From the NCBI GenBank assembly GCA_029907715.1, contig JARYLI010000010.1, positions 1 to 57,178 of the forward strand: a DNA stretch of 57,178 nucleotides, written 5' to 3'. Source of the stretch: Methanothrix sp. (lineage in GTDB: Archaea; Halobacteriota; Methanosarcinia; Methanotrichales; Methanotrichaceae). This document shows, piece by piece, positions 8,018 through 56,895 of this stretch; positions within the stretch are counted from its first letter, which is position 1, and the number at the start of each line of letters is the position of its first letter. Position numbers and translations under genes: made by a program. The notes below the pieces were generated by a model. It saw nothing but the letters and a program-made list of their open reading frames with translations, did no database searches and had not been told where the DNA came from.

Positions 8018-8207
8018 CATGCGTCACCGGTTAAGATCGACATGTGTAGAATTGGACTTAATAGTCATATTTCGCCTCAGTACTGCTATCACGACTCAAG
8101 TCCACAGGGCGGTCGATTTGAATCAAACTCTCCACTATGGGGAGATCTCAATTTGTCAAATTTCATGATCAATATATTTACATAAAATCCTTAACCGATG
8201 ACCAATG
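8018..8207 (+). repeat. R1 element, copy A (about 190 bp, terminal inverted repeats)
   Basis: First of three copies of a non-coding repeat (others at 25488-25676 and 41529-41717). The ends are inverted repeats: CATGCGTCACCGGTTAAG on the left, and the reverse complement of the right end reads CATTGGTCATCGGTTAAG. The inside has an imperfect inverted pair (GGACTTA and CAAGTCC) and the string AATTTGTCAAATT. No plausible protein is encoded. Unlike the other two copies, I see no direct duplication flanking this one, so it may be the oldest or may have suffered rearrangement. Confidence 0.85.
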
Positions 8208-8281: not shown

Positions 8282-8390
8282 GAACATGCTCGCTAAATTG
8301 CCCTCTTGACAGATTTCTAGATAAACGACTGTGCCATAGCGGCTTCACTTGATTGGTAACTCAAGTACGCTCACGATATTGAGCAAATAC
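8282..8390 (+). repeat. R3 element (about 109 bp)
   Basis: This stretch is homologous to 40983-41102 and, in the opposite orientation, to the R3 layer at 36378-36627. It begins GAACATGCTC and ends GAGCAAATAC, whose reverse complement is GTATTTGCTC, so the ends are imperfect inverted repeats. The interior shares strings such as AGATTTCT, ACGACTGTGCCA and GCGGCTTCACTTGA with the other copies. Flanking 8-mers (CCGGCGAC and CCAGCGGA) are only partly alike. With R1 copy A just upstream, the whole 7979-8484 gap is a repeat island without a gene. Confidence 0.7.
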
Positions 8391-8484
8391 CCAGCGGATC
8401 ACCAATAAGTTAAAGTATTACTGGGTTTGAATCATAATTATGTATTAACACTGAAGTGGGGGTAGTTGAAGGGGTGTAACTCTG

Positions 8485-12362: not shown

Positions 12363-12917
12363 CTAAAGCAGGAGAAGCAACACGCCCATTGCCACGAAGA
12401 TCAGCCCCGCTGCCAGGGAGATTGTCCGCCGTTTTATGTACCTCAGTATGAACCTCCCAAGGTATATGGCGCTCAGTGAGAGCATGAAGAGGGCGAGCAT
12501 GGTGCCGCCGAGAACCATCCACGGGTTGTACTGTGTGGCGAATATCGCGGATGCGATCTGTGTCTTATCCCCCCACTCAGCCAGAAATATGACCAGAAAG
12601 CCTGACAGGAACGGGCTGTCATCAAACCTCCTGCCCTCCTCTCCATCTCCATCGAGATCCCTCAGCGTGGTTATCCCGAAAAGCAGGAAGATCGCCGCAG
12701 AGATGATCTTCAGAATGTTCGCAGGAACGACTTCTGTTATCCATGCGCCGAGAAGTATTGCGAACCCGTCGACGATGAGAAAGGCCGACATCACTCCTGT
12801 GAGCAGCGTCAGATGTCTGCCTGTCCTGGTGGACAGCAGGAGAACAGAGAGCTGTGTTTTATCACCGAATTCCGCAATGGCGATGGTGATAAAGGGGATG
12901 AGAAGATCCGCAAGCAT
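12363..12917 (-). CDS. GDT1/TMEM165 family divalent cation transporter
   Basis: This 184-residue membrane protein has the two diagnostic inverted-topology motifs of the UPF0016/GDT1 family, EFGDKTQLS at residues 16-24 and EWGDKTQIAS near residue 114. The rest is about six transmembrane helices, in two homologous halves around an acidic loop (DLDGDGEEGRRFDD). Family members move Mn2+ or Ca2+ in exchange for protons across the membrane. TATA-like GCTATAAATAAG at about 12937-12947 lies 25 bp from the ATG, which suggests a leaderless mRNA. The CDF-type metal exporter at 13107-14003 lies upstream on the same strand, so metal balance may be a shared theme. Confidence 0.9.
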   Translation of the reverse strand: MLADLLIPFITIAIAEFGDKTQLSVLLLSTRTGRHLTLLTGVMSAFLIVDGFAILLGAWITEVVPANILKIISAAIFLLFGITTLRDLDGDGEEGRRFDDSPFLSGFLVIFLAEWGDKTQIASAIFATQYNPWMVLGGTMLALFMLSLSAIYLGRFILRYIKRRTISLAAGLIFVAMGVLLLLL

Positions 12918-25412: not shown

Positions 25413-25487
25413 AGTTCTGGTTCGTGGTATTCCCATGCTTCCCTCAACATATCTCTGGGATCCCGTGATTACATATACGGTTGAATT

Positions 25488-25676
25488 TATGCGTCATCGG
25501 TTAAGATCAACATGTGTAGAATTGGACTTAATAGTCTTATCCCCACTCAGTACTGCTATCAGGACTCAAGTCCACAGGTGGTCGATTTTAATCAGACTCT
25601 CCACGATGGGGAGATCTCAATTTGTCAAATTTCATGATCAATATATGTACATAAAACCCTTAACCGATGACCCATG
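25488..25676 (+). repeat. R1 element, copy B (189 bp) with flanking duplication
   Basis: Homologous to 8018-8207 and 41529-41717. The left end TATGCGTCATCGGTTAAG and the reverse complement of the right end (CATGGGTCATCGGTTAAG) are inverted repeats. It is bracketed by the direct repeat CGGTTGAATT (25478-25487 and 25677-25686); the match carries on for five more bases because the element happens to begin TATGC. That is the mark of a transposition event. It fills part of the 500-bp gap between cfbB and the deoxyhypusine synthase gene; nothing else gene-like is seen there. Confidence 0.88.
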
Positions 25677-25912
25677 CGGTTGAATTTATGCTTCGTGGTC
25701 TCAAATAACCGGATGTTCTGTCAGGAATAAGCGTGCCCGGACATAACGCCTCCTGAATCCCGGCTGGTCTGATGCTGCTCATCTCAATGATCGTACAGGA
25801 CCGAAGTTCTGGCACGATCCTGAAGCCTCTCCGAACATCCTGATCCTTCCAGGATCCTGACCGTCGACCGGGAGACAACCTTTAAAAATGTTAAGATACC
25901 TCCCATTGTGCC

Positions 25913-36277: not shown

Positions 36278-36377
36278 CAAGCGCTCTTACTGTGGCAACC
36301 CGCTCGTGAGCATCCAGGTCTGCAAATGGGATCGCTCTTATCCATCTGATAACCTGTCTGCATAGGCACTGATCCTG

Positions 36378-36627
36378 GTATTTGCTCAATATGGTGAGCG
36401 TGCTTGAGTTACTGATCAAATGAAGCTGCTATGGCAGAGTCGTTCATCCAGAGATCCGTCGAGATGGCAATTTAGCTCCGCTCTTATCCATTTGATGACT
36501 TGCCCGAAGGAGCAGGGGTCATGCTATGCGTTCGTTTCGACGAATGAATGCTTTCATCGACCACATTGCATGCTCTGCAAGTTGCTACGCACATAAGAGC
36601 GTTTAGCTCGACGTATTGAGCATGTTC
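36378..36627 (-). mobile_element. R3 element nested in R2 (and itself carrying an R2)
   Basis: It begins GTATTTGCTC and ends GAGCATGTTC and is homologous, in reverse, to 8282-8390 and 40983-41102. It is bracketed by near-identical 8-mers TGATCCTG (36370-36377) and CGATCCTG (36628-36635) inside the outer R2. It is itself interrupted by an R2 at 36479-36601; without that insert and its duplication it is about 119 bp, equal to the copy at 40983. Confidence 0.82.
36479..36601 (+). mobile_element. R2 element (inner copy, 123 bp)
   Basis: A complete short-form R2, from CGCTCTTATCC to ACATAAGAGCG, is bracketed by a perfect 8-bp duplication TTTAGCTC (36471-36478 and 36602-36609). It lies inside the R3 at 36378-36627. 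By eye it differs from the copy at 56773-56895 at only about six positions of 123, so both probably moved recently. It lacks the central hairpin module found in longer copies. Confidence 0.9.
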
Positions 36628-36811
36628 CGATCCTGCTATGCGCTCGTTTCGACTTATCTTCGACGTAGTCGAAGTCCTAGCTAGCTAACGAATGCATTCA
36701 TCCGGCCTGCATGTCCTTCAAGTTGCTGAATACATAAGAGCGAATGGGATTTCACAGGTTGAGCGCTATCATCAAACCGATGCTGAATACAAAAAAACAG
36801 GGGGATTGGCT

Positions 36812-40982: not shown

Positions 40983-41102
40983 GTGAACATGCTCGATATG
41001 TTGAGGTAACTCGACCTCTTGGTAGATTTCTGGATGAACGACTGTGCCAGGCGGCTTCACTTGAGCAGTACCTCAAGTACGCTCACGATATTGAGCATGT
41101 TC
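40983..41102 (+). repeat. R3 element, free copy (about 118 bp)
   Basis: It starts GAACATGCTCGATAT and ends ATATTGAGCATGTTC, perfect 10-bp inverted ends with further pairing. It is flanked by TCAGTGTG (40975-40982 and 41101-41108), which overlaps the right end; so the exact boundary is uncertain by two to four bases. It is homologous to 8282-8390. The interior includes a second inverted pair, TTGAGGTAAC and GTACCTCAAG. No protein is encoded. Confidence 0.8.
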
Positions 41103-41472: not shown

Positions 41473-41789
41473 CGCTCTCATGTGTTTGGCAACTTATGGG
41501 TCGAGCAATGTGGTTGCTGAACGCACTTCATGCGTCATCGGTTAAGATCGACATGTGTAGAATTGGACTTAGTAGTCTCATCTCGCCTCAGTACTGCTAT
41601 CAGGACTCAAGTCCACAGGCGGTCGATTTGAATCAAACTCTCCACTATGGGGAGATCTCAATTTGTCAAATTTCATGATCAATATATTTACATAAAATCC
41701 TTAACCGATGACCAATGGAACGCACTTACTCATTCACCAGGAATGCATAGCAGGACCAGTGCTGCTATGCATATTATATGAATAAGACG
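41473..41789 (-). mobile_element. R2 element, degenerate, interrupted by R1 copy C
   Basis: The left part CGCTCTCATGTGTTTGGCAAC...AATGTGGTTGCTGAACGCACTT and the right part ACTCATTCACCAGGAATGCATAGCAGGACC...AATAAGACG together follow the R2 pattern read on the minus strand. The R1 element at 41529-41717 separates them. Flanking strings GGGGATTT and GGGGGTTT resemble a decayed duplication. The two pieces were one element before the R1 insertion. Confidence 0.72.
41529..41717 (+). mobile_element. R1 element, copy C (189 bp) with 10-bp target duplication
   Basis: Left end CATGCGTCATCGGTTAAG and right end CTTAACCGATGACCAATG are inverted repeats matching at 16 of 18 positions. The direct repeat GAACGCACTT flanks it perfectly (41519-41528 and 41718-41727). 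The interior is close to the copies at 8018 and 25488. It sits inside an older R2 element. It has no coding capacity, so it would depend on a transposase encoded elsewhere. Confidence 0.92.
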
Positions 41790-41934: not shown

Positions 41935-42109
41935 CGCTCTTATCCATCTGATAACTTGGCCCGAAGAGGCAACAGTCAAGCTATTCGCCCGTTTCGACTT
42001 ATCTTCGACTGCGTCGAAGAGTTTCGACGAAGTCGAAGGCCTGGCGAGCGAATGAGTGCATTCAGCAACCGGCCTGCATGTCCTTCAAGTTGCTGAATAC
42101 ATAAGAGCG
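41935..42109 (+). mobile_element. R2 element, long form (175 bp)
   Basis: It runs from CGCTCTTATCCATCTGATAAC to CTGAATACATAAGAGCG, bracketed by a perfect 8-bp duplication TCAGCCAT (41927-41934 and 42110-42117). Between the arms is the hairpin module, here expanded: TTCGACTGCGTCGAA followed by TTTCGACGAAGTCGAA. It differs from the 123-124-bp copies mainly by that module. The right end is identical to the copies at 36742 and 50146. The remaining 42118-42253 holds nothing I recognise. Confidence 0.9.
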
Positions 42110-56772: not shown

Positions 56773-56895
56773 CGCTCTTATGTGCGTAGCAACTTGCAAA
56801 GCATGCAATGTGGTCGCTGAAAGCATTCATTCGTCGAAACGAACGCATAGCATGACCTCTGCCCCTTCAGACAAGTCATCAAATGGATAAGAGCG
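56773..56895 (-). mobile_element. R2 element, short form (123 bp)
   Basis: Read on the minus strand it runs CGCTCTTATCCATTTGATGAC to GCTACGCACATAAGAGCG. It is bracketed by a perfect 8-bp duplication AATTTTAT (56765-56772 and 56896-56903). It has the same length as, and about six differences from, the copy at 36479-36601. The remaining gap from 56904 to 57116 is AT-rich and holds nothing I recognise except possible signals for the adjoining 5S rRNA gene end. Confidence 0.9.

Follow-up and report, generated by a model that had tools for sequence, protein, structure and literature searches.

The window analysed here is the whole of contig C10 (57,178 bp) in a 2.0-Mb, 55-contig assembly of Methanothrix sp.; it includes an archaeal RNase P RNA and three copies of a short repeat, R1. 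The copy at 25488-25676 raises the question of what kind of sequence R1 is, and of what placed it there. MITEs are short, non-coding sequences with terminal inverted repeats and target duplications, which are present in many copies, are mobilised by a transposase acting in trans, and are usually described species by species. With a probability of roughly 0.93, we consider R1 to be a MITE of this kind, mobilised by an ISH8-like IS4-family transposase made elsewhere.

All three window copies are read on the forward strand and, according to the list of open reading frames, sit between long reading frames and are themselves non-coding, so that R1 has the short length, lack of coding capacity and terminal inverted repeats of a MITE. 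Copy B (25488-25676; 189 bp) has the ends TATGCGTCATCGGTTAAG / CATGGGTCATCGGTTAAG and a target duplication, CGGTTGAATT, at 25478-25487 on its left, with the same letters at 25677-25686 on its right. Copy C (41529-41717; 189 bp, read directly from the sequence) has the ends CATGCGTCATCGGTTAAG / CATTGGTCATCGGTTAAG, with the right duplication (GAACGCACTT) at 41718-41727, identified both from the sequence and from an empty-site alignment, and the left one at 41519-41528. Copy A (8018-8207; 190 bp, ends CAGATAGATC / GAGACGGCTT) is without a target duplication, its flanks differing at 5 of 10 positions. The earlier note had reported three copies with 18-bp inverted ends at these places, with B and C exactly 189 bp long and flanked by 10-bp repeats; direct reading agrees with this and shows these repeats to be perfect. 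The inverted ends are imperfect, matching at 15 of the 18 positions in A and at 16 in both B and C. None of 2000 shuffles of copy C reached 14 end matches. The copies are closely similar to each other (A-B 173/190, A-C 183/190, B-C 175/189 identical positions), and a search of the window for the core GTCATCGGTTAAG with no more than two mismatches returns 6 occurrences, every one of them an R1 end (mean 1.14, largest 5 in 100 shuffles).

The direct repeat at copy B is really 15 bp long (CGGTTGAATTTATGC at 25478-25492 and 25677-25691), because the copy starts with T rather than C and the target continues with ATGC, like the next four bases of the copy, through coincidence or conversion. The boundary is consistent at 10 bp across the family, and 10 bp is therefore the right reading for copy B too; the longer match may reflect chance, gene conversion or a variant cut.

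R1 has been copied around its own genome (G000) at least 40 times, with a 10-bp duplication at most of the landing sites. Matches to R1 amount to at least 48 pieces, of which 30 approach full length and the others are split or partial (40 of 61 candidates scored). With one mismatch allowed, the core GTCATCGGTTAAG is present 95 times (47 forward and 48 reverse) and the reversed pattern 0 times. Duplications were scored in 38 two-ended copies, for which pairings of 181-190 and 301-322 bp with no more than three mismatches in the two cores were kept, and copies cut by contig ends or one-ended (e.g. L034, L035, L038, L075, L081-L086) were left out. The 10-bp repeats are perfect in 26 of these copies, have one mismatch in 5, two in 1, and five or more in 6. 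A target duplication of the fixed length typical of MITEs is thus present with no more than one mismatch over 10 bp in 31/38 copies and missing at that level in 7, copy A included; random re-pairing of the flanks (2000 times) yields 0.8 such pairs on average and never more than 5. The 31 duplicated 10-mers have G at position 1 in 17, A at position 2 in 22 and T at position 9 in 25, and R1 has a weak, loosely palindromic target preference, GA(N6)TC.

Copy size in this genome deviates somewhat, over a range of 181-190 bp, and one of the 38 copies (L065, 186 bp) represents a second subfamily that shares these ends. The copies of 301-322 bp were considered as a second form of R1 and rejected as such; they are R1 copies carrying another small inserted element, which is either of the CGCTCTTAT...ATAAGAGCG type with an 8-bp repeat (AAGTCCAA at L033) or TA-flanked (L032). 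A 64-bp element at L080:1176-1239 (G000:C15:12875-12938) has both R1 ends and almost no interior, and its flanks (GATACTGTTC / GAGTGCATTC) do not match.

Empty sites are found for copy C and for three other copies. Copy C sits inside a CGCTCTTAT-type element (R2/R3 of the earlier note), the left part of which (CGCTCTCATG...GCTGAACGCACTT) spans 41473-41528 and includes the left duplication; after removal of R1 and one 10-mer, its joined flanks run through uninterrupted elements at loci L081, L014, L003 and L200. The joined flanks of L022 match another copy of the same element type at the same spot, and those of L006 and L040 match a sister type at GAGTGCATTC. For all four insertions the uninterrupted R2/R3-type elements hold a single copy of the 10 bp. 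Insertion has proceeded both ways, R1 entering CGCTCTTAT-type elements and such elements entering R1.

The 8-bp duplication ascribed to the R2/R3-type elements is real in the window, and a separate machinery for them is plausible. One CGCTCTTAT...ATAAGAGCG element of 123 bp (36479-36601; 8-bp repeat TTTAGCTC) is nested in a stretch at 36333-36742 whose outer ends are flanked by AATGGGAT, and further copies of this type lie at 41935-42109 (175 bp, TCAGCCAT) and 56773-56895 (123 bp, AATTTTAT). A repeat family of ~100 bp (8292-8391, 36377-36476 and 41003-41097) adjoins two of the R1 copies; it has many copies in the related genomes G002 and G005, and site A of G001 lacks it.

Comparison of the insertion sites in five relatives by flank synteny found window copies A and B in none of them; site C was examined through paralogous empty sites only. 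At site B, which is bordered by genes for a CobB/CobQ-like amidotransferase and a deoxyhypusine synthase, the flanks are kept and R1 is missing: the two flank matches lie on one contig, 58 to 201 bp apart, in G005, G002, G001 and G004, and are split over two contigs in G003. At site A, between a helicase gene and a phosphoesterase gene, G005, G003, G001 and G004 have the two flanks on a single contig, separated by 19 to 302 bp that contain no R1; in G002 the flanks lie apart. Each site is therefore without R1 in the 4/5 relatives where it lies on one contig, and conservation of R1 at the same loci across distant strains, which the earlier note had named as the pattern that would speak against a mobile element, was looked for and not seen. 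In G005, the nearest relative, all four recognisable R1 copies (4/4) occupy sites that also hold R1 in G000, with flanks 96-99% identical, a fifth match being a 22-bp end; part of the R1 family therefore predates that split, these insertions being held in common by ancestry.

Copies common with G005, the placement of the window copies between long reading frames, and an inner sequence that stays recognisable across genera might be expected if R1 were not a transposon and instead a dispersed functional element, such as a regulatory RNA or a protein-binding site whose inverted ends form a hairpin. This is very improbable: it is contradicted by the precise 10-bp duplications and the empty sites, as well as by the absence of R1 from the syntenic sites A and B, and elsewhere the same ends bound a transposase gene. 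The RNA version of this reading was rejected, since there is no Rfam match within R1 and it folds no better than shuffles (z-scores of -1.23, -0.38, -0.81 and -0.66 for four 149-nt pieces of copy C).

If R1 is a MITE, a gene for its transposase might be found between similar ends, and the earlier note had proposed a search for such a gene, suspecting an IS4-type element. The start of a degraded transposase adjoining R1-type ends was used as a query against 60 related genomes and matches 12 of them. There are 15 frames of at least 438 aa, for 14 of which both ends are in hand (the copy in G010 is truncated by a contig end). Perfect 10-bp duplications flank 13 of these 14 intact two-ended elements, which are 1406-1458 bp long; seven are in G019 (1458 bp), five in G055 (1445 bp) and one in G032 (1406 bp), and the exception, a 1450-bp element in G021, has flanks with 7 mismatches. 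The autonomous elements of G055, G019 and G032 have their ends in common with R1, and the two 18-bp ends of the G055 element agree with those of R1 copy C in every letter. Each has a single transposase frame, of 436-450 aa from the first ATG; one such frame, together with duplications of around one helix turn, is characteristic of the IS4 family. Five of the transposases were compared, the other four being 53-59% identical to the first; all five match NF033592 (IS4 family; 236-250 bits, cut-off 115) and DDE_Tnp_1, and D127, D196, E323 and Y316-R319-E323-K330 are invariant among them. PMC2266710 defines the IS4 family by the spacings D(60-110)D(100-150)E and Y(2)R(3)E(6)K, and the DDE and YREK residues of the five transposases conform to these. 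One of the transposases was searched against solved structures, with no sequence match at E <= 0.1. The suspicion of an IS4-type element is thus strengthened, in that R1-type ends with 10-bp duplications bound IS4-family transposases in related genomes. A further element in G019 (L164, G019:C1:1838010-1840684; 2675 bp) has R1-type ends and a perfect 10-bp repeat, TGGTATTGCG, around a transposase remnant and further DNA; it is possibly an insertion sequence with cargo, or one struck by another element.

A profile search of the six genomes of the genus itself found no intact transposase; G000 has three fragments of 33-36 residues, G003 has a broken gene, and the other four gave no match at E <= 0.001. 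Fragments only are held in the genus, and R1 is therefore probably immobile here, unless an intact partner lies in an assembly gap. Since no intact ISH8-like gene is found in the genus, and other DDE_Tnp_1 fragments lie at the ends of contigs C21 and C6, an unrelated transposase could be imagined to move R1, sharing its ends and 10-bp stagger with the ISH8-like elements by chance. We regard this as very unlikely given the letter-identity of both ends of the G055 element with copy C, and given that R1-type ends in the own genome lie near fragments of the ISH8-like transposase family (C15:12465 with a fragment at 12618-12716, and C5:76946 with one at 77043-77150). The contig-end fragments themselves were rejected as the engine of R1, there being no R1 ends in the 2.5 kb fetched; the C21 protein is presumably IS1634-like.

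The same ends, the 10-bp duplication and the YREK transposases of the relatives together identify R1 as a MITE of the IS4/ISH8 type. We infer that an ISH8-like transposase, or a lost close relative of one, moved R1, and that it would have done so by cut-and-paste as in the IS4 elements that have been studied. Such a transposase would bind the two 18-bp ends (CATGCGTCATCGGTTAAG and CATTGGTCATCGGTTAAG in copy C) and pair them, excise the R1 segment, and join it to a target whose two strands have been cut 10 bases apart, a stagger from which host repair would generate the 10-bp direct repeat. What ties R1 to the autonomous elements is the ends they have in common, the equal length of their duplications and their occurrence in one clade. 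Inspection by eye showed no likeness between the interiors, and R1 therefore probably did not arise by recent internal deletion from a known autonomous element.

Two IS4 subgroups, as described in PMC2266710, resemble R1 and its partners. ISH8 elements share the 5'-CAT ends, the T at position 15 and the 10-bp direct repeats, and have the YREK transposase, the length (1400-1800 bp) and the Euryarchaeota preference seen for the partners, which fit the ISH8 row of Table 1 in PMC2266710 with their CAT ends, 10-bp repeats and lengths of 1406-1458 bp; R1 itself differs in being gene-free. ISH8 insertions are there described as having no apparent specificity, whereas R1 has its weak GA(N6)TC preference. 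The IS231 subgroup is alike in its CAT ends, TAA at positions 15-17, 10-12 bp repeats and YREK, but R1 has CG rather than AA at positions 11-12, and IS231 is almost restricted to Firmicutes in that account (PMC2266710).

Elements with R1-type ends are not confined to the genus. A survey of 237 genomes of the class for exact GTC[A/T]TCGGTTAAG ends in three size windows, with elements summed over forward-strand matches, gave 220 elements in 51/237 genomes at 173-203 bp, 2 elements in 2 genomes at 142-172 bp and 40 elements in 12 genomes at 204-234 bp; for families f1 and f3 together (f1 being that of R1 in this class) the corresponding numbers are 208, 2 and 1. Sequence was retrieved for 24 loci spread over the class, and 10-bp repeats with no more than one mismatch flank 19 of them. 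Clustering by inner sequence (shuffled-alignment z-score, threshold 5, null maximum 2.9) gives clusters of 15 members (f3, f7), 8 (f1, with R1), 8 (f5, f7) and 6 (f1 and f3), together with one pair and two singles. R1 thus belongs to a MITE superfamily of this archaeal class with internally distinct clusters, and size is held near 186-190 bp in two families and is variable elsewhere. In family f3, 79/79 elements among the matches listed are 186-190 bp long, as read by eye from coordinates, and the f5/f7 cluster ranges over 177-213 bp. In this cluster, elements with R1-type ends at L226-L232 and L235 contain inner ACACGGAT repeats, and these ACACGGAT-like units vary the element length.

The uniform size in f3, and the common size of clusters whose inner sequences are dissimilar, would suit a rule of helical phase, in which a length near 187-190 bp places the two ends on one face of the helix when they are paired, 189 bp being 18 turns of 10.5 bp. 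A helical-phase requirement on the spacing of the ends has reportedly been found for IS50, work that PMC3464196 lists as a reference. Against this, f5/f7 elements of 177, 183, 194, 196 and 198 bp have duplications with no more than one mismatch (two of 213 bp have none), so no single helical phase is required, and common descent with few insertions and deletions may suffice to explain the narrow range. A strict rule was rejected on these sizes, and helical phase stays a weak and unlikely rival; a narrow size range therefore characterises some clusters and is not a law of the transposase. R1 probably belongs to an old MITE lineage, which retains an inner sequence of its own and stays close to 187-190 bp in length. 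More tentatively, and at less than even odds, R1 may be one branch of an ancient, self-standing MITE superfamily that has endured over much of the history of the class rather than arising time and again from deleted insertion sequences, its ends, 186-190 bp size and inner sequence being kept because only such copies are moved by successive ISH8-like transposases.

A search of the literature on MITEs in Methanosaeta, Methanosarcina and archaea found no description of R1 among the papers listed, and an earlier one is possible. R1 adds a newly described member to a well-known type of genome parasite, and the class-wide lineage is the part worth following: unlike MITEs generally, the R1-type elements occur in several families within a single archaeal class, as clusters that differ internally and agree in their ends and, for the most part, in size. 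R1 provides a clear archaeal MITE complete with duplications, empty sites and a probable engine. Elements of this kind fragment assemblies and remodel intergenic regions, and they therefore matter when these genomes are compared. If the class-wide lineage is real, about 260 natural variants from the 237 genomes would make it possible to ask which inner lengths and sequences are tolerated by an IS4-type transposase, and how a gene-less parasite outlives the transposases of its hosts.
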